The notes below the pieces were generated by a model. That model did no database searches and had not been told where the DNA came from. It saw only the letters and a program-made list of their open reading frames with translations. Shown here in pieces: positions 4,354-48,313 of a stretch of DNA of 64,000 bases; the first letter of the stretch is position 1; each line of letters starts with the position of its first letter. The position numbers were made by a program, and so were the translations under genes. Location: NCBI GenBank assembly GCA_039984955.1, contig JBDWTN010000007.1:372001-436000 (forward strand), read 5' to 3'. The DNA comes from Marinobacter alexandrii. Its GTDB lineage: Bacteria; Bacteroidota; Bacteroidia; Cytophagales; Cyclobacteriaceae.

Positions 4354-4365
4354 TGATCTACATCA
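4354..4365. promoter_or_regulatory. FNR/Crp-like box before the SDR gene
   Basis: TGATCTACATCA fits TGA-N6-TCA, centred 69 bases before the SDR start codon. One of 22 such dyads in the intergenic regions of this window; binding by an FNR-type regulator is inferred. Confidence 0.5.
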
Positions 4366-4414
4366 TTTCCTGAAGAGTTTTTCTAACTGAATTTGCAGTA
4401 AGAATTCAATCACT

Positions 4415-4422
4415 AAAGGAGA
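4415..4422 (+). promoter_or_regulatory. Strong Shine-Dalgarno sequence of the SDR gene
   Basis: AAAGGAGA sits six bases before the ATG at 4429. Most starts in this window show no clear Shine-Dalgarno, as is normal in Bacteroidota, so this stands out and fixes the start. Confidence 0.6.
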
Positions 4423-4428
4423 TAAATT

Positions 4429-5199
4429 ATGAAACGATTAGAAGGAAAAGTAGCGGTAGTAACAGGAGCATCTCTGGGCATTGGTGAAGCTACAGCCGAG
4501 CTCTTTGCAAAAGAGGGCGCCAAAGTGGCAGTTACTGATGTACTGGATGAAGAGGGAAGAAAAGTGGTCGACAAAATAGTACGACTCGGTGGAGAAGCTG
4601 CTTATTGGCACCTTGATGTGACAGATGAAAAAGAAGTAAGTACCGTCTTAAAGGAAGTATTTGATAAATGGGGAAAGCTGAATGTACTGGTAAACAATGC
4701 CGGAATTGCTGGAGCTAATGCACCTACCGATCAGGTTACTGAAGAAGAATGGGATCAAGTGATGGCCGTCAATGTGAAAGGTGTATTCTTCTGCACCAAG
4801 CATGCTGTTCCTTACATGAAAAAAAGTGGTCCTTCAAGTATCATCAATTTGTCATCCATTTATGGAATCATAAGTGCCCCTGATATTCCTCCATATCATG
4901 CATCGAAAGGAGCTGTAAGGTCAATGTCCAAAACAGATGCGCTATTGTATGCATCGGAACAAATTCGTGCAAACTCTATTCATCCTGGTTTTATCTGGAC
5001 TCCTCTCGTAGAAGATTTTTTAGGTCAAAGTGGAGGCAGCATCGAAGAAGGAAGAAAAGCCACTGACGAGCTTCACCCCATCGGACACATGGGAGAGCCT
5101 GACGATATCGCATATGGCGCCTTGTATCTGGCTTCCGACGAATCAAAGTTTGTAACCGGAGAGGAGCTGGTTATTGATGGTGGATATACAGCTCAATAA
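4429..5199 (+). CDS. Short-chain dehydrogenase/reductase (classical SDR)
   Basis: NAD(P)-dependent Rossmann oxidoreductase of 256 residues. The cofactor motif TGASLGIG is at residues 12-19, NNAG at 89-92, and the catalytic Ser142/143, Tyr156 and Lys160 lie in LSSIYGI and YHASK. D37 and D40 in VTDVLD after beta-2 suggest NAD(H) rather than NADP(H). It ends with the common IDGGYTAQ. It resembles glucose/cyclic-alcohol dehydrogenases, but SDR substrates cannot be called from motifs. It has its own upstream spacer with an FNR-like box and a strong Shine-Dalgarno, which points to induced, high-level expression. Confidence 0.88.
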   Translation: MKRLEGKVAVVTGASLGIGEATAELFAKEGAKVAVTDVLDEEGRKVVDKIVRLGGEAAYWHLDVTDEKEVSTVLKEVFDKWGKLNVLVNNAGIAGANAPTDQVTEEEWDQVMAVNVKGVFFCTKHAVPYMKKSGPSSIINLSSIYGIISAPDIPPYHASKGAVRSMSKTDALLYASEQIRANSIHPGFIWTPLVEDFLGQSGGSIEEGRKATDELHPIGHMGEPDDIAYGALYLASDESKFVTGEELVIDGGYTAQ

Positions 5200-5223
5200 A
5201 TTCCTGATTTCAACAGAAAAATT

Positions 5224-5811
5224 ATGAAAAAAGCAAGATTACTATTACTCACAATAGTATGTGCATGTAGTTCGGTACAGATATTCACAGATTATGACAA
5301 GGAAGCTGCTTTTGCCGGTTATTTAACATTTGAGATGGGGCCTCCTTCAGAGAATTTACCAAACGATCCGATCATCAATGATCTGAATGGTCAGCGGATA
5401 AGAAAAGCCATTGCTCGTCAACTAGAAGCTCGTGGCTACAGACAAGCTCCTCAGGCCGATTTAATGGTCAATATCTATGTGAAAATAGAGCAGAAAACAG
5501 AAGAGGTAACTCGATATGACGGACCATATTTTCCTTATCATTCAAGATTCTGGTACTACGGGTATTGGGGAAATTATTACAATTTTTGGGGTTCAGGATG
5601 GGGCTACACTACCGTCCATGTTCGAGACTATGACGAAGGAACACTCATCGTGGATCTTGTAGATACCAAAACAAAAAGACTGGTGTGGCACGGTGTTGCC
5701 ACAGGCACTCCTGAAAAGTTCAAAAAGAAAACGGAAGAGCGAATAAATGAAGTAATTGAAAGAATGTTTGATGAATACCCATATCGTGCAGGGGATGGCT
5801 TCCAAAATTGA
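5224..5811 (+). CDS. DUF4136 family lipoprotein
   Basis: 195 residues starting with a short hydrophobic leader and a Cys near position 15 (TIVCACSSV), a plausible lipobox, so probably a periplasmic or outer-membrane-facing lipoprotein. The body matches the DUF4136 pattern: IRKAIARQLEARGYRQ, then ADLMVNIYVK, a Tyr/Gly/Trp-rich central stretch, and VDLVDTKTKRLVWHGVATG near the C-terminus. Function of the family is unknown. It lies 24 bases after the SDR gene and may share its transcript. Confidence 0.8.
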   Translation: MKKARLLLLTIVCACSSVQIFTDYDKEAAFAGYLTFEMGPPSENLPNDPIINDLNGQRIRKAIARQLEARGYRQAPQADLMVNIYVKIEQKTEEVTRYDGPYFPYHSRFWYYGYWGNYYNFWGSGWGYTTVHVRDYDEGTLIVDLVDTKTKRLVWHGVATGTPEKFKKKTEERINEVIERMFDEYPYRAGDGFQN

Positions 5812-5883
5812 CTAAGGTCCAGAATATCACAAACCTCAACGATTTACTATCTTCCTTTGAAAAACTAGATTGAACTAACTAAA

Positions 5884-6801: not shown

Positions 6802-6822
6802 TAATGTGTAGGATGTTTCTCT

Positions 6823-9083: not shown

Positions 9084-9095
9084 TGAACATGATCA
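9084..9095. promoter_or_regulatory. FNR/Crp-like box upstream of the eIF2B-like pseudogene
   Basis: TGAACATGATCA, centred 60 bases before the pseudogene ATG at 9029. Its neighbourhood (CCATGAACATGATCA) is nearly the same as the box at 43707 (CCATGAACACGATCA). Suggests the dead gene once belonged to the same regulon. Confidence 0.45.
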
Positions 9096-9347
9096 GTTAA
9101 AAGCATAATGCTTATCAGCTAAAAACCACTTTGATGGCGTATCTCATGCTTATAATCTGAGTTTGGCTTGAATGACCTAAAATCAAGAGTTTATCAATTC
9201 CTGAAACACTTCATAATAACCTAATTTCGAGCTAAATATTTATCAAGAATCATCAAAACATGTCATCTTGATTGAAAAGAAAGATCTTTCTTCAACTCAG
9301 AGATCCTTTAAGAAAAAGTAATGATTTTTGAAGTTACGAAGATTCTT

Positions 9348-9400: not shown

Positions 9401-9538
9401 TTAAATCGAACTGAGGTTAATAAGTTTATAGGCCCAATCTCCATGACTGGAAGTTGCCGTAATGGCTATGCATAAGAGTTCTGCGATTTGTGATGGAACT
9501 TCTTGATAAGCATCAACCCTAAGACTGATGAGGATCAT
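9401..9538 (-). pseudogene. C-terminal remnant of a ClbS/DfsB-like gene
   Basis: The minus strand reads AELLCIAITATSSHGDWAYK then LINLSSI and a stop at 9401. The block ATSSHGDWAYKLI matches ATSSHYDWAYKLI at the end of the intact ClbS-like protein encoded at 6823-7320. Only the last helix is recognisable; upstream the frame soon loses similarity. A fragment of a duplicated paralogue is the simplest reading. Confidence 0.6.
9526..9537. promoter_or_regulatory. FNR/Crp-like box upstream of the cytochrome c lipoprotein
   Basis: TGATGAGGATCA, a TGA-N6-TCA dyad centred about 97 bases before the start at 9629. It overlaps the ClbS-like remnant. Confidence 0.45.
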
Positions 9539-9628: not shown

Positions 9629-10108
9629 ATGTCAGTTAAGAATAAATACAAAACGTTGTGTAATCTGCGAAATTATTTAAAGGTGTTCACCCTATTGTGT
9701 GGAGCCTTGCTAGTAAGTAGTTGCAATGAGCAAGCACGCGGATTTGCATTGCCTGAAGGTGAAGTTCTTGAAGGAAAAGTTATCTATATGAAGTTTTCTT
9801 GCAATGAATGCCATAGTATTTCGGATATCGAGTGGAAAGGCGGAAGTGATAGCCTTAACATACCTCTCGGTGGTGAAGTAACTAATAAGAAAACTTATGG
9901 AGGTTTGGTTACCTCAGTTATCAATCCTTCTCATGAAATCGCACAGCAATACAAACAAGAGGGCTCTACCGAAGAAGGTCTTTCAAAGATGGAGAATTAC
10001 AATGAAGTGATGACTATCCAAGAACTCATTGATCTAGTGGCTTTTCTTCAATCGGAGTATAAAATAAAAGCGCCACCAGAAAATTATTACTATCCTTACC
10101 CTCGTTAA
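9629..10108 (+). CDS. Monohaem cytochrome c lipoprotein
   Basis: 159 residues. A hydrophobic leader ends in LLVSSC32, a lipobox, so the protein is probably anchored in a membrane facing the periplasm. C58-N-E-C61-H62 is a CxxCH haem c site; a possible axial Met is in the C-terminal YNEVMTIQELIDLVAFLQ, the usual last helix of class I cytochromes. Likely an electron carrier; partner unknown. It stands alone between a decayed region and an oppositely oriented gene, with an FNR-like box upstream, which would fit control by oxygen or electron-acceptor supply. Confidence 0.8.
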   Translation: MSVKNKYKTLCNLRNYLKVFTLLCGALLVSSCNEQARGFALPEGEVLEGKVIYMKFSCNECHSISDIEWKGGSDSLNIPLGGEVTNKKTYGGLVTSVINPSHEIAQQYKQEGSTEEGLSKMENYNEVMTIQELIDLVAFLQSEYKIKAPPENYYYPYPR

Positions 10109-16612: not shown

Positions 16613-16718
16613 ATTTTTTGACTGATCCTTAAAGCTGTCTCAGACCTGATCAAGGTTATGCATTTTGATGAGATAATTCATGGAAGCATATGTATTCAGT
16701 CTCTATTTTGATTCTGAA

Positions 16719-17228
16719 ATGAGTAGGATGATTGTAGTTGTCTTAGGATTACCTGGATCAGGTAAAAGCTACTTCGCAGAAAAGTTTGCAGAAGTAATAG
16801 GAGCACATTACATCAGTTCGGATCAAGTGAGAGTAACACTCTTTGAGGAGAAAGATTACTCATTGAGAGCAAAGGAAAAAGTATATCATGAGATGTTGAG
16901 ACTAGCAAAAGACTCATTAAAGAATGAAAATGATGTAGTACTAGATGGCACTTTCTATTTGAAAAAATGGAGAGGAGTGGTAAGAAGCACTTTTGAGAGA
17001 ATAGCCAAATGTTACTTCATAGAAGTACAAGCTTCTGAAGCATTGATAAAAAAGCGAATTCAGAAGAAAAGATTTTTTAGTGATGCAGATTTTGGAGTGT
17101 ATCAACAATTGAAGAGGGTATTTCAACCGATGAAAAGGCCACACTTGGAGCTTGATTCAACGAATGAAAACATAGAGGAAATGATCAAAATATCATTGGA
17201 TTACATACAGCTAAATAAAGAAATATGA
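16719..17228 (+). CDS. P-loop kinase-like protein (COG0645 type)
   Basis: The Walker A motif GLPGSGKS lies about 10 residues after the Met at 16719; ATGs at 16680 and 16728 are alternatives, and the latter gives the usual MIVVVLGLPGSGKS start. DVVLDGTFY is a Walker-B-like strand. It resembles the small zeta-toxin/gluconate-kinase-like ATPases of COG0645. The stop overlaps the next start as ATGA, so translation is coupled. In Mycobacterium (Rv2004c) and many Proteobacteria the two domains form one polypeptide, usually with the kinase at the C-terminus. Substrate unknown; phosphorylation of a small molecule is inferred. Confidence 0.75.
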   Translation: MSRMIVVVLGLPGSGKSYFAEKFAEVIGAHYISSDQVRVTLFEEKDYSLRAKEKVYHEMLRLAKDSLKNENDVVLDGTFYLKKWRGVVRSTFERIAKCYFIEVQASEALIKKRIQKKRFFSDADFGVYQQLKRVFQPMKRPHLELDSTNENIEEMIKISLDYIQLNKEI

Positions 17229-18405: not shown

Positions 18406-18417
18406 TGATAATGATCA
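18406..18417. promoter_or_regulatory. FNR/Crp-like box before ppsA
   Basis: TGATAATGATCA (TGAT-N4-ATCA), centred 82 bases upstream of the ATG at 18494 and just after the terminator, so it can only belong to ppsA. Confidence 0.55.
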
Positions 18418-18493
18418 TCAACTATACGGACGCCAGTCATAAAACCGATTTCTAGCCTAACCTATATTGAGAATATACTCAAATCAGAAAGCC

Positions 18494-21730: not shown

Positions 21731-21742
21731 TGATAGAGATCA
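21731..21742. promoter_or_regulatory. FNR/Crp-like box before the outer-membrane barrel gene
   Basis: TGATAGAGATCA (TGAT-N4-ATCA), centred 50 bases upstream of the start at 21686; the other neighbour's 3' end faces it, so it serves only the barrel gene. Confidence 0.55.
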
Positions 21743-21771
21743 GTTGCATGTATGATTCTGAATTTGAGTGG

Positions 21772-24025: not shown

Positions 24026-25585
24026 TCAGGATTTATCCTTAAATCTTACAGGAATAGTTACCTTGAATGTAGTACCATTGCTTTGAGAGCTCTTGAACGA
24101 AATTTCTCCACCGAGTAATTCAATATACCTTTTTACGATACTCAGCCCCAGACCTGTCCCTTGAAAATTTCTGGTATTGTTAGCCCTGAAAAATCGCTCG
24201 AACAGGTGAATTTGATCTTCTTCAGGAATACCTATCCCCTTATCCTCTATCTCACAGACAACCATTTCTTTAGAAATAAACTCACAACGCAGGTAGATAG
24301 GTTTATTCTCAGGAGAGTATTTTATCGCATTTGAAACAAGATTAACCAGAACATTTCTAACTAATTTCTTGTCTGTAGTCATTGTTTGTGCAATTCCCGA
24401 ATGTGAGGATTCTAATGTTTGACCAGGCTTAAGAATCGGAGAAAGTGAAGATTCTACTTCTTCAAAGACATCTTCCATTTCAAAAGGTTCTGGTTGACAA
24501 GCCACCCTTCCTTCATTTAAGCGATCCAAAGAGAGAAAATCTTCTAAAATTCCATTCAAGTGATCCACTGATGATTTGATCCGATTAACATGCTTCAGCC
24601 TTTTATCATCCGATTCTGTATCTGGATACTTTGATATTAATGAGGCTGATGATAGTATGGTACTCAATGGCGTTCTGAATTCATGTGATGCCAGAGAAAC
24701 AAATTTTGATTTCATTTCACTTAAGCCTCTTTCCTTATTCAGTAACTCTTGAAGTTCTTTTGTCCTTTCCTCTACCTCTTTTTCAAGGCCTTTACTGTAC
24801 GACCTCAGTTTTTCCTCACTTTCCTGCAATGCCGTCAGTATTTTCTTCTTCTCCGTGATATCCATGCCGGAGCTAAGTGAGCCTACGACTTTACCATCTT
24901 CATTCGTAACTACGGTATTTTGCCAGTGAATTAACTTTTTATGTCCAGACTTGGTGACTACATGATTATCATATACCCGATAGTCTTCAGTTCCCTTCAG
25001 AACACCCAGAAACACCTCCTCAAGATCATCTTTATCTTCAATTGAAAGTTCAAACCAGTTTTTCCCCAGCAATTCTTCTTCCGTATACTCAAGAACCTCA
25101 CATCCCTTTTTATTAATATCAATAACTTCTCCCTTCATATTTAACGCAAGCAGAATGACTTCTGCTACATTGAAATACTGCCTGTTGATATCTTTTGATT
25201 GTTCAGAGTGATTTCTCTCGGGCTCATCCGTCACAAAAATTATGAGAATATCCTCCTCCCCAGGAACATGCGTTATACTAAGGGCCACTGGAAACTCAAA
25301 CCCATCGTTCCGTATTCCGATTATATTGGGTTGTCTTAAGTTCTTCTTTTTGGTTTGAATCTCTTCAATATCCCAAATTCCATCCATCGGGATTAACAAA
25401 TTGAACATTTTACCGTTCAGGACTTCCTTCTCATACCCAAACATTTGAAAGGCAGATTTAGAAGCCGATATAATGTGCCCCTTGCTATCCACTACAATGA
25501 TTGATTCCTTTGTCGAGTCAAGAAACGCACGACAGAAAGGATCATCTATGAATGCAAAAGTATTTTTGGTGAGTACTTTTGTCAT
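24026..25585 (-). CDS. Double-PAS sensor histidine kinase
   Basis: 519 residues, no membrane segment. Two PAS domains (about residues 12-125 and 132-250), a coiled coil, HisKA with phospho-acceptor His in LASHEFRTPLST, and HATPase_c with NLVSNAIKYSPENKP (N box), EDKGIGIPEE (G1) and GTGLGLSIVKRY (G2). It is a soluble kinase, so an internal signal such as redox or energy state is likely. No response regulator is adjacent; the degenerate receiver at 36.8 kb is not a normal partner. The upstream region has a perfect palindrome. Confidence 0.9.
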   Translation of the reverse strand: MTKVLTKNTFAFIDDPFCRAFLDSTKESIIVVDSKGHIISASKSAFQMFGYEKEVLNGKMFNLLIPMDGIWDIEEIQTKKKNLRQPNIIGIRNDGFEFPVALSITHVPGEEDILIIFVTDEPERNHSEQSKDINRQYFNVAEVILLALNMKGEVIDINKKGCEVLEYTEEELLGKNWFELSIEDKDDLEEVFLGVLKGTEDYRVYDNHVVTKSGHKKLIHWQNTVVTNEDGKVVGSLSSGMDITEKKKILTALQESEEKLRSYSKGLEKEVEERTKELQELLNKERGLSEMKSKFVSLASHEFRTPLSTILSSASLISKYPDTESDDKRLKHVNRIKSSVDHLNGILEDFLSLDRLNEGRVACQPEPFEMEDVFEEVESSLSPILKPGQTLESSHSGIAQTMTTDKKLVRNVLVNLVSNAIKYSPENKPIYLRCEFISKEMVVCEIEDKGIGIPEEDQIHLFERFFRANNTRNFQGTGLGLSIVKRYIELLGGEISFKSSQSNGTTFKVTIPVRFKDKS

Positions 25586-27599: not shown

Positions 27600-27705
27600 T
27601 TTTAACCAATCCTACCTTGAAGAAACTCCTTCTTCCATGATGCGCGTCAGCTAATAAGGTGGATTCGATCAGTAGTAAACTCTATATAAGGATCATCAAA
27701 ATAAA

Positions 27706-31597: not shown

Positions 31598-31911
31598 TTT
31601 AAACCTCCTTTTTTTTAAACAATTAATTTTTGATTAATCTAACAGTGAATGGAAAGGAGATCAATGATAGGTCTCAAGCACTTTTCTGATCTAAGTCAGG
31701 GTTCGATGATTTTTCAGAAAATTATGATTTAATGACCTCAGTCACTCCCTCACAAGCTTGATTCACACGTGCACCCAGAGCTCCCCCTCAAAGAATCCTC
31801 TTCGAGATATGAGTAACTCAACTTTATGAATTTTAATCAGTCTAGTTGCTGATTTTACTCATGTATTCAATTTAATTGAGAGGATAGCTTTAGTCGAAAG
31901 TTGAAGTAAAA
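31598..31911. promoter_or_regulatory. Divergent control region with two FNR/Crp-like boxes
   Basis: Spacer of 314 bases between Hsp20 (-) and USP (+) genes. Boxes are TGATCTAAGTCA (31687-31698; centred 95 bases from the Hsp20 start) and TGACCTCAGTCA (31733-31744). A further 13-base palindrome TCAATTTAATTGA (31866-31878) lies about 40 bases before the USP start. No gene seen. Confidence 0.5.
31604..31610 (-). promoter_or_regulatory. Perfect Shine-Dalgarno of the second Hsp20 gene
   Basis: Minus strand AAGGAGG, six bases before the ATG at 31597. Such a full anti-16S match is rare in Bacteroidota and suggests very strong translation. Confidence 0.65.
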
Positions 31912-32812: not shown

Positions 32813-35365
32813 ATGAACGTGGCTGCCTATCAAGGTCTATCAACAGCAGAAGTCCTAAACCGGCTGGAGAAGTATGGGAAAAATGAGATTATTGATTCCA
32901 GAAAACACAGCATATGGTTGATCCTTGGTAGACAGTTTAGTTCACCGCTCATACTTATACTAATAGCTGCTGCCTTTATATCTTTTGCTATTGGGTATCT
33001 ACCAGAACAGGAGCCACACCTTGTTGATACCATACTGATACTAGCCATTGTGTTAATATCAGGTGTATTAGGGTTTATTCAAGATTATAAAGCTGAAAAA
33101 ACAATCAAAGCTTTGCAACAGATGTCTTATCCCAGATCCAGGGTTATTAGAGACAATCAAGAACAACTGATATTAGCTAGTGAACTAGTCCCAGGAGATT
33201 TACTTATAGTAGAAGCAGGTGATATGGTCACTGCAGATGGCGAAGTAATTGAATCTTTTCACCTGGATATAGATGAATCCATCTTAACAGGAGAATCTCA
33301 GGCTGTTCATAAAATCGAAGGGGAATTAGTCTTCAAAAACACCATTGCAAACAGTGGGCTTGGAAAAGTGCATGTCACTTCTACTGGAATGCATACCAAA
33401 ATCGGTAAGGTAGCCTCTGAGCTACAAAAGGTAGAAGAAGAACGTTCTAGCTTTCAAGTCGAACTCTCTGGGCTAAGCAGGAAACTATCGCTCATCACTT
33501 TCTTTATCACTATTGTTATCGGAGTTGTGGGTGTATTCAAATTTGGATTTTATACCTCCATCCTTACGGCCATTTCGCTTGCAGTAGCTGCTATTCCTGA
33601 GGGATTGCCTGCAGTAGTGGTACTTGCTTTGGCCATTGGTGCAGGGAAAATGTTTAAGAAAAATGCATTGATCAGAAAACTTCCGATCGTAGAATCCATA
33701 GGTGCTGTTGATGTTATTTGTACGGATAAGACTGGAACACTCACGCTGAATGAGATGACGGTTACTACCACCTTCTTTAATAGAAAAGAGCATACGGCAT
33801 CCGCGCTACAAGCAAATGAATTGAGTCATACCGCTAACATGCTCTTTCTATGTGCTCATACCTGCAATCATGCTTCTTCTGGGTTTCGCGAAGATGGCTC
33901 AGAGTATTACCTGGGGGATCAGACAGAAATTGCATTAAAGAAAGCTGCACTTATACAACTCAGTGCTCAACCCCTTCCTCATTATCGAAAGATCAATGAA
34001 ATACCCTTCGATTCGGAAAGAAAACGGATGACTGTATTGGTTGAAGATAAAACAGGAGTTCATACCGCATTTACAAAGGGAGCGCCTGAAGTGCTTTTAA
34101 CCAAATGCACTCATATTCTGGAAGGAAATGAAGTGGTTCCGATGACTAAGAAACTCAGCAATGAGCTTATGGAACAAACTGATGTTTTTGCTTCGCAAGC
34201 ACTTCGTGTGATGGGCTTTGCCTACAAAAGAGCTGAATCCGATCATGAACATCTTGATGAGGGGCTTACATGGATTGGTTTACAAGCAATGATTGACCCC
34301 CCTAGAAAAGAAGCAAAGCAAGCATTGGAGGATTGCAAAAATGCTGGCATCCGTGTAATCATGATTACGGGGGACAATCCAGTCACTGCTCAGGCAATTG
34401 CGCGGCAAGTAGGATTGGATAGCAAAAATGTGCTTACTGGGGGAGAGTTAGATCAACTCAGTGACCTTGAGCTTGAAGATTACTTAAAAAGTGACACGAA
34501 CATATTTGCAAGAACAGATCCATTTCACAAATTGAGGATACTCGAACTGCTAGAGAAAGATCATACGGTGGCGATGACTGGCGATGGAGTAAACGATGCA
34601 CTAGCTATTAAACGCTCAGTGGTAGGTATAGCGATGGGTAAAAAAGGAACCGAAGTAGCAAAGCAAGCCAGTGATATAGTCTTACTTGATGACAACTTTA
34701 GTTCAATCAGAGATGCGATAAAGGAAGGTCGCACCATCTTTGATAATACTAGAAAATTCATAGACTATTTACTGACCTGTAATCTGGCTGAGGTAACGTT
34801 AATTTTCTTTATCACTCTTTTTTTCTCATTCTCAGAACCCATCCTCTACCCTGTTCAATTGCTTTGGATCAATCTTTTGACGGACGGCTTGGTCGCCTTG
34901 GCTCTGGGAGCTGATCCTCCTGCTAAAGACATTATGCAAAGAGCTCCGAGGAAAAACGGAGAGCCCCTCATTGATAAAAAGCTGGCATGGTTGATTGGAT
35001 TGATTGGATTAAAGAAAGCAGCTGTCTTGGTTGTTACTTTTCTGCTGGTTCTACCACAAGGTTTAGATATTGCCAGATCAACGTTACTAACAGGAATTGT
35101 CCTTTTCGAATTTGTCAGAATAGGCGCTATTCGATATGGTGAGAAATTGGGATGGTTTGACAATAAGTGGTTAGTCATGGGCCTGGTTGTCTCATTGATA
35201 CTCCAAGTCGGTCTTATCTATTCACCTTGGAACCACTTCTTTTACCTGACTCCATTGGGCATGCATGAATGGCTTGTGCTCATTGTTGGAGTTGTCATTG
35301 GGTACCTGCTAGCCATTCTAATTACCCGGCTGGTAAGCAGATTTTTTAATACAACGAAAGGCTGA
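32813..35365 (+). CDS. Ca2+-type P-type ATPase (CtpF/PMCA/SERCA-like)
   Basis: 850 residues from the ATG at 32813; an ATG at 32738 would overlap the USP gene by 71 bases and adds a basic stretch unlike the family. Actuator TGES in ILTGESQAV, phosphorylation site DKTGTLT, and hinge TGDGVND are intact. Membrane residues support Ca2+: PEGLP in M4 (E309-like), NLAE in M5 and NLLTDG in M6, matching SERCA Ca2+ ligands N768/E771/N796/D800. So a Ca2+ exporter (or Mn2+) of the inner membrane. It follows the USP gene by four bases. Confidence 0.9.
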   Translation: MNVAAYQGLSTAEVLNRLEKYGKNEIIDSRKHSIWLILGRQFSSPLILILIAAAFISFAIGYLPEQEPHLVDTILILAIVLISGVLGFIQDYKAEKTIKALQQMSYPRSRVIRDNQEQLILASELVPGDLLIVEAGDMVTADGEVIESFHLDIDESILTGESQAVHKIEGELVFKNTIANSGLGKVHVTSTGMHTKIGKVASELQKVEEERSSFQVELSGLSRKLSLITFFITIVIGVVGVFKFGFYTSILTAISLAVAAIPEGLPAVVVLALAIGAGKMFKKNALIRKLPIVESIGAVDVICTDKTGTLTLNEMTVTTTFFNRKEHTASALQANELSHTANMLFLCAHTCNHASSGFREDGSEYYLGDQTEIALKKAALIQLSAQPLPHYRKINEIPFDSERKRMTVLVEDKTGVHTAFTKGAPEVLLTKCTHILEGNEVVPMTKKLSNELMEQTDVFASQALRVMGFAYKRAESDHEHLDEGLTWIGLQAMIDPPRKEAKQALEDCKNAGIRVIMITGDNPVTAQAIARQVGLDSKNVLTGGELDQLSDLELEDYLKSDTNIFARTDPFHKLRILELLEKDHTVAMTGDGVNDALAIKRSVVGIAMGKKGTEVAKQASDIVLLDDNFSSIRDAIKEGRTIFDNTRKFIDYLLTCNLAEVTLIFFITLFFSFSEPILYPVQLLWINLLTDGLVALALGADPPAKDIMQRAPRKNGEPLIDKKLAWLIGLIGLKKAAVLVVTFLLVLPQGLDIARSTLLTGIVLFEFVRIGAIRYGEKLGWFDNKWLVMGLVVSLILQVGLIYSPWNHFFYLTPLGMHEWLVLIVGVVIGYLLAILITRLVSRFFNTTKG

Positions 35366-35384
35366 AAAAGATCACGTAAGTCGA

Positions 35385-35396
35385 TGAGGTAGGTCA
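35385..35396. promoter_or_regulatory. FNR/Crp-like box before the DUF302 gene
   Basis: TGAGGTAGGTCA, centred 59 bases before the ATG at 35450. ATGAGGTAGGTCA recurs as a whole at 16600, so the two are closely related operators. Confidence 0.55.
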
Positions 35397-39156: not shown

Positions 39157-39334
39157 AGCTTTTGTGTTTGAACTTCAATTAAAGAGCAACTATCAAGAAA
39201 CGGGGTGATAATCCTCAACATGATGATTGATTATCATCAACCGCTGATCATTTTCAAGGGCTACTATGATCCTAATCATTCCTTTTGAATAGCTAAAAAG
39301 GCTAGGTTGGTAATTCTATATCAACGCATTATTC
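39157..39334. promoter_or_regulatory. Divergent control region with four FNR/Crp-like boxes
   Basis: Four dyads in 73 bases: TGATAATCCTCA (39206-39217), TGATTATCATCA (39228-39239, which with its flanks is TTGATTATCATCAA, a perfect TTGAT-N4-ATCAA box at 39227-39240), TGATCATTTTCA (39245-39256) and TGATCCTAATCA (39267-39278). They lie between ftsH (-) and the exchanger gene (+). The densest cluster in the window. Confidence 0.65.
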
Positions 39335-40285
39335 ATGAGTGATTTTGGGCTACTCTTACTTGGAATACTCGGACTATGGCTAGGAACTGAGCTGGTCGTC
39401 AGGAAGGCGATTATTCTGACCAAGCGTTTTAACGTCTCATCCGTATTCATTGGTTTATCCATCCTGGCATTCGGAACTGATCTGCCTGAATTGATCGTAG
39501 CAATTAATGGAGCCATTCATAGCTCTAGGGGCATAGATAGTTCAGGGGTTATCGTAGGAAATGCCATCGGAAGCTCCATCAGTCAAATAAGCATCATCAT
39601 TGGATTAACAGCTGTTGTTCACTTTCTGGCGGCTGGTAAAATTCAGATACGTCACTTAGCCGTTGAACTTATTGGGTCTATTGTTTTATTAGCCTTGGTT
39701 GGCTTTGATTATGTCATTACATGGAACGATGGAGCCATTCTAATCATTGCTTTTCTCATCTATTTCCTAACTCATCTAAACAGGGAAAGGGCAAATGAAA
39801 TTCAGGAAGTCAAGGAAAAAACCATATTACTTAACACTACCTCTCACGTCTTATTATTAATCCTCGGACTGGGAATCGTTATTCTTTCTTCCGAATTGAC
39901 GATAAACAAAGCGCTTAATCTGGCCAATCAATGGAATGTCAATCAATCATTTATTGGTGCTGTGATTATCGGTCTTGGAACGAGTCTTCCCGAATTGGCC
40001 ATTTCCATTAGTGCCATTTTAAAGGATAAGCCGGGGCTTTCTATTGGCAACATTATCGGCAGCAATATCTTTGATATACTGGTTCCAATAGGTATTAGTT
40101 CACTCATTTCTAATATCTATATTGAAAAATCTATCTTACTTTTTGACATGCCCTTTTTGTTAGTGTTGTCGATCGTAGTGATTTACTTTCTAAGTAAAAA
40201 GAAGGGACTACAAAAAAAGGAAGGAATTGGGCTTACCCTCCTCTATCTCACTTATGTATTTCTGAAGTACATTCTGTGGCAATAG
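39335..40285 (+). CDS. Ca2+/Na+ (or cation/proton) exchanger of the CaCA family
   Basis: 316 residues, ten predicted membrane helices, with the two inverted alpha-repeats: GTDLPELIVAINGAI with GNAIGSSISQISIIIG, and GTSLPELAISISAIL with GNIIGSNIFDILVPIG, the YrbG pattern. The acidic residues of both repeats are present. Exports Ca2+ at the expense of Na+ or H+. It sits 4 kb from the Ca2+-type ATPase, which together would give two routes for Ca2+ removal. Confidence 0.92.
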   Translation: MSDFGLLLLGILGLWLGTELVVRKAIILTKRFNVSSVFIGLSILAFGTDLPELIVAINGAIHSSRGIDSSGVIVGNAIGSSISQISIIIGLTAVVHFLAAGKIQIRHLAVELIGSIVLLALVGFDYVITWNDGAILIIAFLIYFLTHLNRERANEIQEVKEKTILLNTTSHVLLLILGLGIVILSSELTINKALNLANQWNVNQSFIGAVIIGLGTSLPELAISISAILKDKPGLSIGNIIGSNIFDILVPIGISSLISNIYIEKSILLFDMPFLLVLSIVVIYFLSKKKGLQKKEGIGLTLLYLTYVFLKYILWQ

Positions 40286-41062: not shown

Positions 41063-41557
41063 TCAGTGAATAGCTCTAAGGTTGATCTCTTCTTTAGCTA
41101 GCCCTGAAAGCATACGATCTGTATTCTTTTCCTCTGCCAAAGATTCTCTTAGGAGTATAGCTACATTCTTTTCCGCCAATTCTTCAGCATAAGTACAGAG
41201 CGTACCATAGCTGGCAATGTTGTGATGATTTAGGTGTTGGATAGATGCAATAATACCCGCATCCCTAACGTCATCATCAGTACACCTCATTTCCAATTCA
41301 AATGCTTCATCAATAAGCCCTTTCACGCCCATGTTATTCTCACCATGAATGTTTCTTTCCAGCAATGAAAAAACATCTTCTAATCGCTCCATTTGCTCTC
41401 GCGTTTTTCCTATATGCACATCGATAGCCCCTTGCAAAGCGTTTGAAGTCGTCTGCTCCCTTAATTTTTTTAATGCTTCTAACTGCTGCCTCTCTCCATC
41501 TTTCTGCTCTTTGAGCTGTTCGACAAAGAGTCCCATAAAATCAATAATATTTTTCAT
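41063..41557 (-). CDS. YciE/YciF (DUF892) ferritin-like protein
   Basis: 164 residues from the ATG at 41557 (an upstream ATG at 41602 adds an unlikely leader). Four long helices: FMGLFVEQLKEQKDGERQQL, DVHIGKTREQMERLEDVFSLLE, IIASIQHLNHHNIASYGTLC and LLRESLAEEKNTDRMLSGLA, with Glu/His repeats of a di-iron four-helix bundle (E..E, H...E, EAFELE). DUF892 proteins are induced in stress and starvation in enterobacteria; ferroxidase activity is inferred. Two FNR-like boxes lie before the start. Confidence 0.8.
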   Translation of the reverse strand: MKNIIDFMGLFVEQLKEQKDGERQQLEALKKLREQTTSNALQGAIDVHIGKTREQMERLEDVFSLLERNIHGENNMGVKGLIDEAFELEMRCTDDDVRDAGIIASIQHLNHHNIASYGTLCTYAEELAEKNVAILLRESLAEEKNTDRMLSGLAKEEINLRAIH

Positions 41558-41602
41558 AACTCTTTTTCTTATAAACCAGATCAATAAATAGGTCTGACTC
41601 AC

Positions 41603-41636
41603 TGATGCGCTTCATCTTAATAAATGATCCTGCTCA
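41603..41636. promoter_or_regulatory. Pair of FNR/Crp-like boxes between YciE-like and YtfI-like genes
   Basis: TGATGCGCTTCA (41603-41614) and TGATCCTGCTCA (41625-41636), 22 bases apart (two helical turns). They lie 51-73 bases before the YciE-like start and 53-75 bases before the gene at 41684, so could regulate both. Confidence 0.5.
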
Positions 41637-41683: not shown

Positions 41684-42187
41684 ATGATCGTTTTAATTAT
41701 TACCGTCATTCTTCTTGCCCTAATCGCATGGGTTTTGTTTACCCCCATCATTTTGAGGATGGATACTATACATCATATCTATGATTTAAGACTTTTCGGT
41801 GTAGTTCGTACCTGGCTCGATCTGGAACAGGATGAATTAACCTTTCATCTCAAGCTACCATTCTATCATTATCGGGCAAATCCATCATTCGAGCGATCTG
41901 AAACTATTAAAAAGAAGAAAAAACCTGAGCGCAAGAATTTTTCTTTCAAACAAGCCAAACGGATAAGGAATGTTCTTCGCTCATTTAGGTTCAGTACTCT
42001 TAAAGCAGCTCTAGATACAGGCAATTATGCTGTAAACGCTCAATTGATTCCGTTAGGTGTATTTCTAATGAATAAAGGGTTCCCTGTCCACATCAATTTT
42101 CAAGGAAACTCTTACCTAATGCTAGAGGTCCGAAATACATTTTGGAGGATAAGCACTGCTTACTTAAACATCAGAAAATACAATTAA
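41684..42187 (+). CDS. YtfI/DUF2953-like membrane-anchored protein
   Basis: 167 residues with one N-terminal membrane helix (IVLIITVILLALIAWVLF), then a short beta-rich part (DLRLFGVVRTWLDLEQDELT, FHLKLPFYHY), a lysine-rich linker and a C-terminal FRISTAYLNI-like segment. It is 23 bases before a GerW/YtfJ-like gene; in Bacillus the neighbour of ytfJ is ytfI (DUF2953), of similar size and topology, so I name it by context plus topology. The family match by sequence is weak. Function unknown. Confidence 0.55.
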   Translation: MIVLIITVILLALIAWVLFTPIILRMDTIHHIYDLRLFGVVRTWLDLEQDELTFHLKLPFYHYRANPSFERSETIKKKKKPERKNFSFKQAKRIRNVLRSFRFSTLKAALDTGNYAVNAQLIPLGVFLMNKGFPVHINFQGNSYLMLEVRNTFWRISTAYLNIRKYN

Positions 42188-42210: not shown

Positions 42211-42579
42211 ATGGAAATGCATATCGAAGAATTATTAGAACAAATCACAAAGTTCATCAAATCGGAAGCCACTACAGACACTATTATGGGAGATCTCTTC
42301 AAGCTAGGTCAGTTTGAATGTGTTCCTGTCATACGTGTAGGAATGGGTTTTGGAAGTGGTGCTGGTGGTGGAAAGGCCCCTAAAAGCTCTGAAGGAGAAG
42401 GTGGTGGAGCTGGTGGAGGAATGGGTATAGAGCCAATAGGATTTCTAGTCACTAAGGATGATGAAATATCATTTATCGGTGTGAGTAAATCAAGCAAGGG
42501 AATAGCTGCTGCTTTTGAAAAAATCCCCGATCTCGTTGAAAAAATGATCTCGAAAAAGGAGAAAGAAGAAACCGCTTAG
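42211..42579 (+). CDS. GerW/YtfJ family protein
   Basis: 122 residues, matching the GerW (YtfJ) family: a helix (EELLEQITKFIKSEATTDTI), VIRVGMGFGSGAGGGKAP, a Gly-rich loop GEGGGAGGGMG, and IEPIGFLVTKDDEISFIGV. In Bacillus it is a spore protein, but the family is also widespread in non-sporulating bacteria; a sporulation role here is not supported by neighbours. Cytoplasmic. Preceded by a DUF2953-like gene, the same partner as in Bacillus. Confidence 0.85.
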   Translation: MEMHIEELLEQITKFIKSEATTDTIMGDLFKLGQFECVPVIRVGMGFGSGAGGGKAPKSSEGEGGGAGGGMGIEPIGFLVTKDDEISFIGVSKSSKGIAAAFEKIPDLVEKMISKKEKEETA

Positions 42580-43635: not shown

Positions 43636-43718
43636 TGACTTAAATCCCTTTTGTGACTGACAAATGATAGTTTTTGTAATGGCATGATTTAAGTCAATTT
43701 CATCCATGAACACGATCA
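43636..43718. promoter_or_regulatory. Control region between USP and cbpA with two boxes and a dyad
   Basis: TGATTTAAGTCA (43685-43696) and TGAACACGATCA (43707-43718) fit TGA-N6-TCA. In addition TGACTTAAATC (43636-43646) is the exact complement of GATTTAAGTCA (43686-43696), giving an 11-base inverted pair 39 bases apart. Could let a dimer or tetramer bind two sites, one per gene. Confidence 0.5.
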
Positions 43719-43775
43719 TTTAGAAAAAAGCCTGGGTCATTTATGTTTATCCTAAATAAGATTCAACGGTCTGGA

Positions 43776-44693
43776 ATGGATTACAAAGATTATTATCAGG
43801 TACTAGGAGTTAACAAAACAGCTTCACAGAATGAAATAAAAAAAGCCTACAGGAAACTGGCGGTAAAATATCACCCTGACAAAAATCCTGATGACAAGGT
43901 AGCTGAGGAGAAGTTTAAAGAAATCAGTGAGGCGCACGAGGTTTTGGGTGATCCAGAGAAGCGCAAAAAATATGATGAACTTGGTGCAAACTGGAAACAA
44001 TATCAAGAAGCTGGTTTTGATCCTTCGGGACAAAGGCATTCATCTGGTTGGTCAGGTGGTCAGCACTATGAGTTTGATGGAGATCCTTCGGAGATGTTTG
44101 GAAGTACTGAGTTTTCTGATTTTTTCGAAACACTTTTCGGTCAGAGAGGTAGAAGACGTGGCTATCAGCAGGAATTTTCAGGTGCTGACCTTGCGGGAGA
44201 GGTTGCCATTTCCCTCCAAGAAGCTTACTCTGGAACGGAGCGAATTGCAGATCTGGGATCTGAGAAAATTCGGCTTAAGATTAAGCCAGGATCGTACGAT
44301 GGCTTAAAGTTGAAGGTCAAAGGGAAAGGCCAAAAAAGTCCGCAAGGAAAGGCTGGTGATCTTTATTTGACCGTAAGAGTTCAAGATCATCCTTCCTATA
44401 AGAGACAAGGTGATGATATCTATATGGAGTTGGCAGTTGATCTTTTTACCGCTCTGCTTGGAGGGAATCAAGAAGTGACTACACTATCAGGAAAAGTAAA
44501 TGTCAAAGTACCCGAAGGCACACAAAACGCAAAAACGCTGCGACTAAAAGGAAAAGGAATGCCTATTTACGGCAAAAAAACACATGGAGACCTGTTTGTA
44601 AAGCTCACAATCAAATTACCCACTAAACTGACTTCTGAGCAAAAGAAAATAGCCAAACAATTGCAAGAAAGTTTTCAAATACAATATGCTTAA
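43776..44693 (+). CDS. cbpA: DnaJ-family co-chaperone CbpA
   Basis: About 305 residues from the ATG at 43776 ([12 protein letters not shown]; a start at 43743 is possible). J domain with HPD at YHPDKNPDD, a Gly/Phe-poor linker ([18 protein letters not shown]), then two C-terminal beta domains without the Zn-finger, as in Cbp[40 protein letters not shown], and [19 protein letters not shown]. Stimulates DnaK and, in E. coli, binds curved DNA in stationary phase. The gene after it encodes a small protein where CbpM often lies. Confidence 0.85.
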
Positions 44694-45907: not shown

Positions 45908-45942
45908 AGAACAATTCACAGTAGTTTCCTACTCCTCATTAT

Positions 45943-46806
45943 CTAGTTGAATAGATCAATGTTTTTTACCTTCTTGTCCAGCTTATAAGTCCAAACAGGA
46001 ATACTGATATGATTGATAGTATCTTCTGTCATACTTCCAGCAAGTAAGTGCGAAATTCCTCTTCGTGCGTGAGTAGCCATAGCGATCATATTTGCTTTAG
46101 ATTCCTGTGAATAAGCAAGTATCCCTTCTGCTGGAAAGACGCTACAGATAATGCATAACTCACTGTCCTGAAAACCATAAGTCTTCATCAGTGAGTCAAA
46201 TTTTTCCCTCACCACTTTTTCGTTTTCGATGTTGTGCGGTGTACGCACCCATACAAACTCCATAGAAGCCGAGAAGAATTTTTGAAGTTGTGCAAATTTT
46301 TTCATCAACTCATCTTGTATTTCTCGGATGTCAATGGGTACCAATATCTTTTTAATTGAATTCACTGAAGTCTTGGAAGGTATTGCTATCACAGGACATT
46401 TTACCTTTCTCACTATTTTTTCAGTGTTTGAGCCAATGAAGAACTCTCCCAAGCCTGAAGATCCATGTGTGCCTACGGCTATTAAGTCTATCCCTTCATC
46501 CGCTACTATATCTTTAATAGATTCTATAAGACTAAGCCCGGACACACATATTTCGCACTCAACATCCGCAGCGACTCTCTTTCTCAACCCTTCTAATTTT
46601 TCATTGATTTCTCGCTCAAATTCTTCAATTAGAGGTTGATAATTATAGGTCATTCCGTAACTAATATCATTGTAATAATTGAAGAATGCACTGTGAAGGA
46701 GTATTAGTTTAGCTTTTGACATTTTTGCGATTTCCACCGCAAACATTGCCGCAGAAATGCTTACCTCAGAAAAATCGACAGGTACTAATATTTTTTTCAT
46801 CATCAA
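45943..46806 (-). CDS. Tandem universal stress protein (copy 4)
   Basis: 287 residues; several ATGs follow each other at the start (46806, 46803, 46800). The first domain has a full ATP motif (GTHG, nine residues, GS in VGTHGSSGLGEFFIGS); the second (ATHARRGISHLLAGS) is partly degenerate. Cytoplasmic. Divergent from the CoA-transferase gene over a 220-base spacer with two FNR-like boxes. Confidence 0.9.
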   Translation of the reverse strand: MMMKKILVPVDFSEVSISAAMFAVEIAKMSKAKLILLHSAFFNYYNDISYGMTYNYQPLIEEFEREINEKLEGLRKRVAADVECEICVSGLSLIESIKDIVADEGIDLIAVGTHGSSGLGEFFIGSNTEKIVRKVKCPVIAIPSKTSVNSIKKILVPIDIREIQDELMKKFAQLQKFFSASMEFVWVRTPHNIENEKVVREKFDSLMKTYGFQDSELCIICSVFPAEGILAYSQESKANMIAMATHARRGISHLLAGSMTEDTINHISIPVWTYKLDKKVKNIDLFN

Positions 46807-46867
46807 TCTTTTTTCAAAGGTGCTTACTAATAAAAAATAGTCGCATGATAGCTGATAGGGTATTCTA

Positions 46868-46879
46868 TGATTTATATCA
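46868..46879. promoter_or_regulatory. FNR/Crp-like box before USP copy 4
   Basis: TGATTTATATCA; with its flanks it reads ATGAT-TTAT-ATCAA, 13 of 14 to the FNR consensus. It shares ATGATTTA and TCAATTTC with the box at 43685. Centred 67 bases from the USP start. Confidence 0.6.
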
Positions 46880-46960
46880 ATTTCTTCATTCCATCTTCAC
46901 AAATGGTGAAACATCCTATTTATCTAAATCAGAAAAGCTGAAAGACATCAAGTATCGGAC

Positions 46961-46972
46961 TGATAGTTATCA
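46961..46972. promoter_or_regulatory. FNR/Crp-like box before the CoA-transferase gene
   Basis: TGATAGTTATCA (five-base perfect arms), centred about 60 bases before the start at 47027. Confidence 0.6.
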
Positions 46973-47026
46973 GCATAGGATGATTACTCTGAGCTCACCT
47001 TTGCATTAACAATCATAAAGTCAATA

Positions 47027-48304
47027 ATGAAAACAGCATCTTCGGCCATAGAAGCCGTTTCATCTATTCAATCAGGTGAAAATATTTTTATCCATACAGG
47101 AGGAGCAGCTCCGCAATCGTTAGTCGATGCATTGACAAGAAGAGCTGATGAATTGGAAAATGTTCGTATCTATCAGATGCATACTGAAGGAAACGCTTCA
47201 TATGCTGAACCTCAATTCAGCAAAAGTTTCGAAGTAATTGCCATGTTTATTGGTAAAAACACAAGACAATGTGTCAATGAAGGATCTGGCGATTTTCTTC
47301 CATGCTTTTTTAGCGAAGTACCTATCATGATTAGAGAGGAAATTATACCAATTGATGTGGCACTAGTACAAGTATCTCCACCAGATAAACACGGATTTTG
47401 TTCACTAGGAATCTCCGTGGAAACAACTAAAGCCGCGGTAGATAAAGCAAAAAAAGTCATAGCGCAAATCAATCCTCAAATGCCACGAACTCATGGGGAT
47501 GGATTGATTCATATTGATAACTTCCATAGTGTATTTGAATATGAACAACTTCTTCCAGAAGTAGTACCTCACCCACTCTCCGAAATTGAAAAAAGGATAG
47601 GCGAAAATGTTGCTAGAATAATTGAAGATGGCGCGACACTTCAAATGGGAATTGGAGCAATACCCAATGCAACATTAGCGTGTCTCCATAATCACAAAGA
47701 CTTAGGTATCCATACTGAAATGTTTTCAGATGGAATTTTACCATTGGTCGAAAATGGTGTCATTAATAACAAATTAAAGAAAAAAAATACGGGTGTAATC
47801 GTATCTGGATTCCTAATTGGCACTCGAAAATTATATGACTTTGTAGATGATAACCCACAGGTGAGAATACTAGATATACAATACGTCAATGACATATCTG
47901 TTATTAGAAAGCAGCCTAAAATGACAAGTATCAATAGTGCTATTGAGATAGATCTGACAGGACAGGTTTGCGCAGACTCTATTGGCGAACGAATATATAG
48001 TGGTGTGGGTGGTCAAATGGATTTTATTAGAGGTGCTTCCCTTTCTCCTGGGGGGAAACCTATTATTGCCCTATCATCGCAAACAAGAAATGAGGAATCC
48101 AAAATAGTCTCCCAACTGAAGCCTGGTGCCGGAGTAGTTACCACTCGAGCACATATCCAATATGTGGCTACTGAATATGGAATTGTTAATCTCTATGGTA
48201 AAAGTCTAAAGGAGAGGGCTAAAGAATTGATAAAAATCGCTCATCCAAATCATCAAGAAAGTTTGGAAAAAGCATTGTTTGAGAGGTTTGGATGCATTTT
48301 ATGA
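47027..48304 (+). CDS. Acetyl-CoA hydrolase/transferase family CoA-transferase
   Basis: 425 residues. The family I CoA-transferase layout is visible: GENIFIHTGGAAPQSLVDAL at the start, VDVAL-type IPIDVALVQVSPPDKHGFCS, GIGAIPNATLACL, and the catalytic Glu in GIHTEMFSDG, then GVGGQMDFIRGA. Closest to 4-hydroxybutyrate/acetyl-CoA transferases (Cat1/Cat2). Transfers CoA between carboxylates without ATP, useful under energy limitation. Exact acids unknown. A second FNR-like box marks it as a member of the regulon. Confidence 0.88.
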   Translation: MKTASSAIEAVSSIQSGENIFIHTGGAAPQSLVDALTRRADELENVRIYQMHTEGNASYAEPQFSKSFEVIAMFIGKNTRQCVNEGSGDFLPCFFSEVPIMIREEIIPIDVALVQVSPPDKHGFCSLGISVETTKAAVDKAKKVIAQINPQMPRTHGDGLIHIDNFHSVFEYEQLLPEVVPHPLSEIEKRIGENVARIIEDGATLQMGIGAIPNATLACLHNHKDLGIHTEMFSDGILPLVENGVINNKLKKKNTGVIVSGFLIGTRKLYDFVDDNPQVRILDIQYVNDISVIRKQPKMTSINSAIEIDLTGQVCADSIGERIYSGVGGQMDFIRGASLSPGGKPIIALSSQTRNEESKIVSQLKPGAGVVTTRAHIQYVATEYGIVNLYGKSLKERAKELIKIAHPNHQESLEKALFERFGCIL

Positions 48305-48313
48305 TGTAGCTCA
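48302..48313. promoter_or_regulatory. FNR/Crp-like box before the peroxiredoxin gene
   Basis: TGATGTAGCTCA; it starts on the stop codon of the CoA-transferase gene and is centred 83 bases before the peroxiredoxin start. Confidence 0.4.

Follow-up and report, generated by a model that had tools for sequence, protein, structure and literature searches.

Tandem FNR-like dyads in a Bacteroidia stress island as probable operators of a receiver-Crp regulon

The window analysed here is a 64-kb stretch of contig C7 of Marinobacter alexandrii (Bacteroidota, Bacteroidia, Cyclobacteriaceae; JBDWTN010000007.1, positions 372,001 to 436,000), in which the spacers of a stress island are rich in the FNR-like dyad TGA-N6-TCA. 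The true unit is a pair of these dyads with starts exactly 22 bp apart. We consider it probable, at roughly 0.73, that the dyads are the operators of one FixL/FixK-like low-oxygen activator regulon, which would be read by REC-CRP, a fusion of a receiver domain with a Crp-type DNA reader that is encoded just left of the window. The direct results of computation are the sites, the spacing between their dyads, their position ahead of the -7 box, and the class-wide association of these sites with REC-CRP.

The dyads and their 22-bp arrangement

The whole window has 74 matches to TGA-N6-TCA; 100 dinucleotide shuffles gave 36.2 +/- 6.4, and 74 was reached in none of them. Gene calling gave 62 genes, and dyads overlapping gene ends were counted as spacer. 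In the 4,689 bp of spacer between 4.3 and 48.4 kb there are 32 dyads, or 6.82 per kb, compared with 29 dyads, or 0.74 per kb, in the coding DNA of the same stretch (39.4 kb); the 1,429 bp of spacer between 48.4 and 62.7 kb hold none. Dyads lying fully within the 34 spacers numbered 29, as against 2.9 +/- 1.7 in 300 per-spacer shuffles (maximum 8). A sequence-only reading of this DNA had listed 22 dyads, and every one of them, including the perfect TTGAT-N4-ATCAA at 39227, is present exactly where it was placed. Ten more spacer dyads had been overlooked (8611, 9202, 9504, 16669, 27638, 31665, 31850, 35363, 46939 and 48324), and the spacer length of 2.7 kb assumed at the time was too small (4.7 kb by the gene calls), which leaves the conclusion unaffected. 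The unequal density in intergenic and coding DNA and the motif-free spacers to the right were both borne out.

Among neighbouring dyads of the window, nine start exactly 22 bp apart, and no other distance up to 150 occurs more than three times. Whole-genome counts were made by pattern search, and matrix scans covered the 64-kb window and six 20-kb stretches. The pattern TGA-N6-TCA-N10-TGA-N6-TCA occurs at 16 places in the genome (4.88 Mb, 8 contigs), and the reversed-pattern control at none; pairs at all gaps from 0 to 30 pooled number 79, which leaves an average of about 2 for each of the other 30 gaps. Thirteen of the 16 exact tandems fall within C7:342.8-420.3 kb (77.6 kb), nine of these in the window, a clustering with a binomial P of 2e-21 for a span that was set after seeing the sites and by the sites themselves. 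Leftward, the cluster leaves the window and continues for about 29 kb, as far as C7:342,773. When up to two mismatches were allowed, the window contained 29 tandem matches (control, 7.3 +/- 2.7).

The candidate receiver-Crp regulator

The REC-CRP of the island (P0001, 355 residues) is encoded at C7:370473-371537 on the + strand, its gene ending about 0.46 kb before the first base of the window. A search of the genome with HTH_Crp_2 gave seven matches, one a fragment and one below the cut-off, and the best of them ends at C7:371,510; the Crp/Fnr homologue that the sequence-only reading had called for is therefore found about 0.5 kb from the window. P0001 carries Response_reg (4.7e-30), PF00027 (cNMP_binding, 1.4e-17), PF13545 (HTH_Crp_2, 1.1e-16) and PF00325 (9.3e-9), that is, a cNMP-binding-like domain followed by HTH_Crp as in the Crp/Fnr superfamily. 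The receiver active-site residues typical of response regulators (E8, D9, D52, T82 and K104) are invariant in 18 of 18 aligned REC-CRPs, and so are E315 and R319 of the recognition helix. In Crp/Fnr proteins, a Glu and an Arg of this helix read TGA. The four-cysteine Fe-S set of FNR proper is missing from P0001, whose two cysteines (32 and 51) both lie in the receiver. Cyclic AMP (cAMP) was considered as a ligand and is not supported: the Arg and Glu of the pocket are not in P0001 (FGYESLLE-GEYGESA, compared with FGELSIFDpGPRTSSA in the Mycobacterium tuberculosis CRP chain 3h3u). In CRP, the Arg (and Glu) of this pocket bind the cAMP phosphate.

A paralogue at C6:302030-303055 is 47% identical to the island copy and lies directly behind a PAS kinase. 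This second REC-CRP shares 83% identity with its counterpart in Ekhidna lutea (L165), and the kinase 77%; genome G007, listed in the same genus, gives the same values, which makes an Ekhidna-like bacterium the probable source of the window. The gene of the island REC-CRP also has a weaker site in front of it (L024:18386, 14.1 bits). The island also contains a plain Crp/Fnr protein of 209 residues (C7:358,014-358,643, - strand; L024:6014-6643); an exact tandem at C7:358,775 stands before its gene, so the protein may be a target of the system. Beside another exact tandem (C7:362,290) lies an 80-residue, cut-short Crp-type helix-turn-helix (HTH) remnant (C7:362,454-362,696; L024:10454-10696, L021), which has 58% identity with the C6 REC-CRP over 71 residues and 34% with the island one, and which looks like a decayed third copy of the regulator.

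The earlier idea of a single FNR-like regulon is supported by the dyad density, by the Crp/Fnr proteins of the genome and by the matrix from other species described below, but its unit is a fixed dyad tandem and not single FNR boxes. The expected reader does belong to the Crp/Fnr family, yet the likely regulator is a receiver-Crp fusion without Fe-S cysteines rather than FNR proper. The sites do occupy the stress island, but further ones lie outside the window, as far as C7:342.7 kb on the same contig and in a respiration cluster of contig C6.

The same tandem in REC-CRP loci of other species

GTDB genomes were scanned with an alignment of 18 REC-CRPs, and the best 80 of at least 592 matched stretches were taken as the loci of other species (1.46 Mb in all); where their titles name a group, it is Bacteroidota. 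These loci contain 836 dyads, whose start-to-start distances are 22 bp in 69 cases and 23 bp in six, with 0-4 cases at every other distance from 12 to 60. At least one 22-bp pair was present in 42 of the 80 loci, and 67 of the 69 pairs are intergenic although 91% of the locus DNA is coding by the gene caller. The common profile reads aTGA[T/C/G]NNNN[A/G]TCAt twice, with TGAA half-sites at 3%. A matrix was built from 70 sequences, all from these loci. When applied to the window, it gave 23 matches of at least 10 bits at 19 places (some on both strands), compared with 0.25 per shuffled window; the two 20-kb stretches to the left gave 8 and 3 matches, and the 20 kb to the right gave none.

The 87 genes that adjoin tandems in the 80 loci include, for divergent spacers, the genes on either side up to 260 bp away, and some of the 87 are therefore not targets. 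Their commonest Pfam families are PAS kinases (10, a count biased by fetching the loci around REC-CRP), the catalytic domain of 2-hydroxyacid dehydrogenases (10), universal stress proteins (Usp, 8), E1-E2 ATPase (6), ATPase-cat_bd (5), YceI (5), COX1 (3), FixO (3), BON (3) and each of the three REC-CRP domains (3).

Chance, base composition or a repeat element might also produce dyads of this kind. Each dyad has only six fixed bases and hence low information, and one genome of the class (G310) has repeat-driven counts, with 135 exact tandems and 68 matches to the reversed control, which mark a repeat family and not an operator set. However, the shuffles and the reversed-pattern controls lie far below what was observed, the coding density is unequal, and the 69 pair sites of the other-species loci have little in common outside the dyads. 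We regard this explanation as practically negligible.

Class-wide association and the cysteine-bearing relatives

REC-CRPs were called at E <= 1e-50 with five candidates scored per genome, which makes the count of carriers a lower bound: at least 200 of 396 class genomes. In a sample of 148 genomes of the phylum, the 23 REC-CRP positives all belong to the same class (the class of 105 negatives was not listed). The association with the tandem was assessed in 394 class genomes, with our own genome and G310 left out and the expected numbers of pairs taken from control gaps 12-31. The 199 carriers contain 975 exact pairs against 123.8 expected (7.9-fold), and the 195 non-carriers 234 against 99.4, with 107 of the latter genomes having none. 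The difference between carriers and non-carriers has a P of 4e-27, a value that ignores kinship; within families (254 genomes in 22 mixed families) the carrier mean was higher in 18 of 22, and none of 20,000 permutations reached the observed excess.

Twelve pair-rich non-carriers were searched again and gave no full-length REC-CRP; the receiver matches that were read out (frames of 357-368 residues) end in a kinase-like ATPase and not in a Crp half. In ten of the 12 (the exceptions being G170 and G327) we found a receiver-less relative with an N-terminal CxxC. A profile of these FNR-like proteins (A3, 16 proteins; the Cys-FNR clade) was used to divide the genomes by E-value alone, the cysteines not being checked singly. 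The 85 non-carriers with a strong match contain 178 pairs against 49.6 expected (3.6-fold), the 34 with a weak match 30 against 20.6, and the 76 genomes with neither regulator 26 against 29.3 (0.9-fold). Among carriers, the 150 without a strong Cys-FNR-clade match have 567 pairs against 93.3 (6.1-fold). The 16 aligned proteins all have C7, C10 and C109, and nearly all have C35. REC-CRP and the Cys-FNR clade group together (92/91) on a 37-protein tree, apart from the plain Crp/Fnr proteins of our genome, and the REC group itself is poorly supported (24/98). Two related regulator groups, one with a receiver and one with cysteines, thus accompany the same box. These counts do not support the receiver as what sets the 22-bp spacing, since the tandem also occurs in genomes that have only the Cys-FNR clade; a receiver is not needed for this arrangement.

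The near-identical recognition helix and conserved cysteines of the Cys-FNR-clade proteins, together with the 3.6-fold excess in REC-CRP-less genomes, could mean that a conventional Fe-S FNR with four cysteines reads the dyads and that REC-CRP is a co-occurring bystander. In our genome, however, the A3 profile gives two matches at E <= 1e-45 (best 1e-56), which we take to be the two REC-CRPs, and the Crp/Fnr proteins that were read out have no N-terminal CxxC. The tandem also remains enriched 6.1-fold in the carriers that have no strong clade match. We consider such an FNR improbable here, unless its gene is missing from an assembly that is 99.9% complete. Another Crp/Fnr protein of the genome might be the reader instead, namely C5:480678, which has an E..SR-type helix, or the plain protein C7:358008 in the island; both match HTH_Crp_2, and the latter has the exact tandem (C7:358775) upstream of its gene. 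Both proteins are nonetheless far from the REC-CRP/Cys-FNR group on the tree, with long branches, and the 76 class genomes with neither regulator have no tandem excess (relatives of the two proteins were not counted there). This assignment seems unlikely to us, if somewhat less so than an Fe-S FNR, and REC-CRP is the reader that we favour.

Promoter geometry and proposed mechanism

Of 88 oriented site-gene pairs, 23 have the sigma-A -7 word TAnnTTTG starting 29.5 bp away from the near-dyad centre, and no other distance occurs more than twice; 46 of the 88 come from spacers with genes on both sides, which were counted both ways. In Flavobacterium psychrophilum, this box is placed at -12 to -5 (PMC9723704). 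Together with the fixed 29.5-bp distance, this position puts the near dyad at about -41.5 and the far dyad at about -63.5 from the predicted starts. These are positions from which Crp/Fnr activators touch RNA polymerase.

Transcription starts in the window were predicted from 18 of the 28 matrix matches of at least 8 bits; the ten that were dropped are opposite-strand readings of the same tandem or lie within genes, and two of them exceed 20 bits (9504 and 46939 read leftward). For 17 of the 18 sites the predicted +1 lies between 36 nt inside and 56 nt before the annotated gene start, and for 16 of these between 11 nt inside and 56 nt before; the remaining site, 9084 (-), is 544 nt off. At three sites the predicted +1 falls inside the gene (16680-17228, 18467-20914 and 43743-44693) and a later start codon can be read from the sequence, so that the true starts are probably further downstream (a later Met for 16680-17228 and 43743-44693).

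The sign of regulation cannot be read from sequence alone, and lone spacer dyads without a good partner exist (e.g., 13092 and 21731). The tandem might accordingly be a repressor operator, or its dyads might be read independently by single dimers without cooperation. The fixed placement at -41.5 and -63.5, clear of the -7 box, is instead activator geometry, and the strict spacing (69 pairs at 22 bp and six at 23) speaks for contact between neighbours; we think neither form of this alternative likely.

We propose the following mechanism for activation by REC-CRP. The likeliest reader of the island would be the REC-CRP 0.46 kb left of the window, with the C6 paralogue second. A PAS histidine kinase would phosphorylate the receiver, and two REC-CRP dimers, one per dyad, would then bind as neighbours on one face of the DNA, 22 bp or two helical turns apart; the predicted positions of the near dyad (about -41.5) and the far dyad (about -63.5) would allow contact with RNA polymerase. 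The signal would most likely be falling oxygen, as in this genome the box is also present before a cbb3-type oxidase gene and before a small operon with a CcoI-type ATPase beside the second REC-CRP, whose kinase has the haem residues of FixL. The genes switched on would serve maintenance: Hsp20, universal stress proteins, DnaJ, FtsH, phosphoenolpyruvate (PEP) synthase, acetyl-CoA hydrolase and peroxiredoxin. We infer binding, phosphorylation, activation, the oxygen signal, the dimer-dimer contact and a kinase for the island REC-CRP from the known biology of Crp/Fnr proteins and FixL.

The possible kinase partner and the proposed link to oxygen

In 71 of the 80 other-species loci a kinase match ends no more than 600 bp before REC-CRP on the same strand, with a median gap of 9 bp; one of the nine loci without such a kinase (L172) has just 0.3 kb of upstream sequence. 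A tandem with at most one mismatch occurs in the 2.2 kb before REC-CRP in 26 of the 80 loci, mostly at a distance that places the site before the kinase, and these stretches hold 33 of the 139 sites in the 1.46 Mb, roughly double what an even distribution would give. For the kinase in locus L144, the best-matching protein of solved structure is FixL (1.2e-30). Among the 71 adjacent kinases, 62 have the predicted haem-binding His and 36 have both His and Arg; a looser, alignment-free motif test found 21. The His alone also occurs in generic PAS domains.

Both FixL haem residues are present in the C6 kinase. Next to the operon of this kinase and its REC-CRP, genes for a cbb3-type oxidase, a metal ATPase, a radical-SAM protein, a nitrous-oxide reductase and Usp lie within C6:275-303 kb (L026, L027). 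The sites of this cluster are exact tandems or tandems with one or two mismatches, followed by a -7 box matching 5/6 or 6/6 at the fixed distance. A one-mismatch tandem with a 5/6 box precedes the FixO-containing oxidase gene (722 residues; leader 191 nt), and another tandem stands before a 77-residue Usp-like open reading frame that is followed by the CcoI-type metal ATPase gene, 443 nt away. The leaders of the radical-SAM gene, which we read as HemN, and of the Usp gene are 12 and 24 nt.

Several of our findings weigh against a low-oxygen regulon under REC-CRP. Three other intact Crp/Fnr proteins (C7:1178717, C7:358008 inside the island and C5:480678) are encoded in the genome and stay as candidate readers. 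Eighteen of the 199 carriers have no exact tandem, pairs at the control gaps are slightly more frequent in carriers (12.4 versus 10.2 per genome, far below the difference at the true gap), and the tandem excess extends to the 85 genomes that have only a strong Cys-FNR-clade match. The operators of the window are laxer than those elsewhere: 6 of the 36 half-sites in its nine pairs are TGAA, compared with 3%, and the -7 boxes behind its exact dyads match 5/6 at the fixed distance in 7 of 148 orientations (mean of 0.98 at other distances) and never 6/6. No respiratory oxidase was recognised in the window, and the C6 leaders include, besides those of 12 and 24 nt, ones of 191 nt (oxidase) and 443 nt (to the ATPase). 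The island REC-CRP has no adjoining kinase, and the histidine kinase of the window (24026-25585) is without the haem His and Arg. In genome G014, an orthologue of the island REC-CRP (69% identical) follows a kinase that is 49% identical to the window kinase over 308 residues (225 bits), but that kinase scores higher with the C6 kinase (306 bits), and on these scores the window kinase was dropped as the clear partner of the island REC-CRP. The C6 kinase, the window kinase or both may feed the island protein; with no adjoining kinase, no haem residues in the window kinase and the G014 scores, the signal to the island is the weakest step of the proposal.

Predicted operators and genes of the island

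The predicted operators of the window and two further features are given below; bits refer to the matrix trained on the other-species REC-CRP loci only.

1..4327, + strand: left window edge, with a CBS-domain protein (119-1756) and a beta-CASP nuclease (2936-4327)
4332..4365, + strand: tandem operator, two mismatches, 17.7 bits; predicted +1 about 4401; before SDR oxidoreductase 4429-5199
9084..9117, - strand: tandem operator, one mismatch, 20.2 bits; next leftward gene start 544 bp off, target unsure
9504..9537, + strand: exact tandem operator, 25.9 bits; before 9629-10108 (no Pfam match; CxxCH word and lipoprotein-like start by eye)
16647..16680, + strand: tandem operator, one mismatch, 19.3 bits; predicted +1 16716; before small AAA-type gene 16680-17228
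18406..18439, + strand: tandem operator, one mismatch, 18.5 bits; predicted +1 18475; before PEP synthase 18467-20914 (listed start TTG; match over cut-off)
21731..21764, - strand: weak tandem operator, 8.5 bits; before outer-membrane beta-barrel gene 21069-21686
24026..25585, - strand: PAS-PAS-HisKA-HATPase histidine kinase, without the FixL haem His and Arg
27638..27671, - strand: tandem operator, one mismatch, 21.1 bits; before 27048-27599 (no Pfam match)
31665..31698, - strand: exact tandem operator, 26.2 bits; before Hsp20 31160-31597
31828..31861, + strand: tandem operator, two mismatches, 15.9 bits; before Usp 31912-32808
35363..35396, + strand: exact tandem operator, 29.4 bits; before DUF302 35450-35836, then sigma-70-type factor 35868-36737
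39206..39239, - strand: exact tandem operator, 20.1 bits; before FtsH-type protease 37219-39156 (Peptidase_M41, AAA, FtsH_ext)
39245..39278, + strand: second, divergent exact tandem operator, 12.8 bits; before Na/Ca-exchanger-type gene 39335-40285 (Na_Ca_ex)
41603..41636, both strands: exact tandem operator between divergent genes, 22.6 bits (+) and 21.5 bits (-); DUF892 41063-41560 (-) and 41684-42187 (+, no Pfam match)
43685..43718, + strand: exact tandem operator, 27.6 bits; predicted +1 43754; before DnaJ/CbpA-like gene 43743-44693
46846..46879, - strand: tandem operator, two mismatches, 18.5 bits; before Usp 45943-46806
46939..46972, + strand: exact tandem operator, 30.9 bits, the top score of the window; before acetyl-CoA hydrolase/transferase 47027-48304
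48302..48335, + strand: exact tandem operator, 18.1 bits; before peroxiredoxin 48391-49116 (AhpC/TSA, 1-Cys Prx C-terminus)

The window contains four Usp genes, Hsp20, PEP synthase and a nitroreductase-family gene (21772-22755), the last without a good site of its own. We read the island as a hold-out programme for oxygen-short cells, with chaperones, protein turnover, energy salvage and peroxide defence. Two complete divergent tandem arrays lie within 73 bp at 39206-39278, their inner dyads starting 17 bp apart. At the left edge, the beta-CASP protein scores 429.6 bits against the NCBIfam model of type VII CRISPR Cas14 (cut-off 800) and 310 bits against aCPSF1 (cut-off 580), and is probably an RNA-processing nuclease; Pfam finds only a C-terminal CBS pair in the 545-residue product of 119-1756, whose long N-terminal part we take to be glutamate-cysteine ligase-like. 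A 350-residue protein without a Pfam or NCBIfam match (17225-18277) is encoded behind the small AAA-type gene, and a Spore_YtfJ-family protein (42211-42579, 7e-19) belongs to this Bacteroidota stress island.

Relation to known systems

To our knowledge, low-oxygen regulation in Bacteroidota has been little described, and among the open-access papers listed by our searches, whose listings were capped, none showed the REC-CRP regulator or its tandem box. The system resembles FixL-FixJ-FixK in the FixL-like PAS kinase of many REC-CRP loci, in a Crp/Fnr reader without Fe-S cysteines, in an FNR-like box and in the cbb3 oxidase genes behind the sites (COX1 and FixO in 3 of the 87 adjoining genes each, plus the C6 oxidase of our genome). 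It differs in that REC-CRP joins receiver and Crp reader in one chain, with no separate FixJ (receiver and NarL-type HTH) between them, and in having a fixed two-dyad tandem, a home in the class Bacteroidia and a large stress island in the regulon. FNR and Anr of Proteobacteria share with it the TGA-N6-TCA core, a near dyad at -41.5 (a predicted position here) and the Crp/Fnr domains, whereas REC-CRP is without their Fe-S cysteine set, carries a receiver and has a strict second dyad 22 bp upstream.

Islands with universal stress proteins under two-component control are also known from DosR/DevR and OsdR, whose output domains are of the LuxR/NarL type, in contrast to HTH_Crp_2 in REC-CRP. The likeness is one of content only. 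The actinobacterial OsdR island adjoins its regulator and has Usp, nitroreductase and pyruvate phosphate dikinase, and the OsdR box is another sequence than the TGA-N6-TCA tandem (PMC5069765). Also related to REC-CRP are the Cys-FNR-clade regulators of Bacteroidota, with a near-identical recognition helix, a joint position on the tree and the same tandem enriched in their genomes; they have N-terminal cysteines instead of a receiver, and none was found in our genome.

A wider proposal, for which we see even odds, is that Bacteroidia possess one promoter code (dyads at -63.5 and -41.5) and one DNA-binding module with interchangeable sensors, either Fe-S cysteines or a receiver fed by a PAS kinase. 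REC-CRP would then be an FNR that gave up its oxygen sensor for a two-component input but kept the regulon and the cooperative tandem, and that in this genus took over a clustered stress and dormancy island comparable in content to those of DosR and OsdR. If our reading is right, about half of the sampled class genomes (200/396) would have a common, readable promoter code, so that their low-oxygen and stress regulons would be predictable from sequence. It would also become possible to test directly whether one DNA reader traded an Fe-S sensor for a receiver, and the dormancy islands of Actinobacteria would have a counterpart under a different regulator family.

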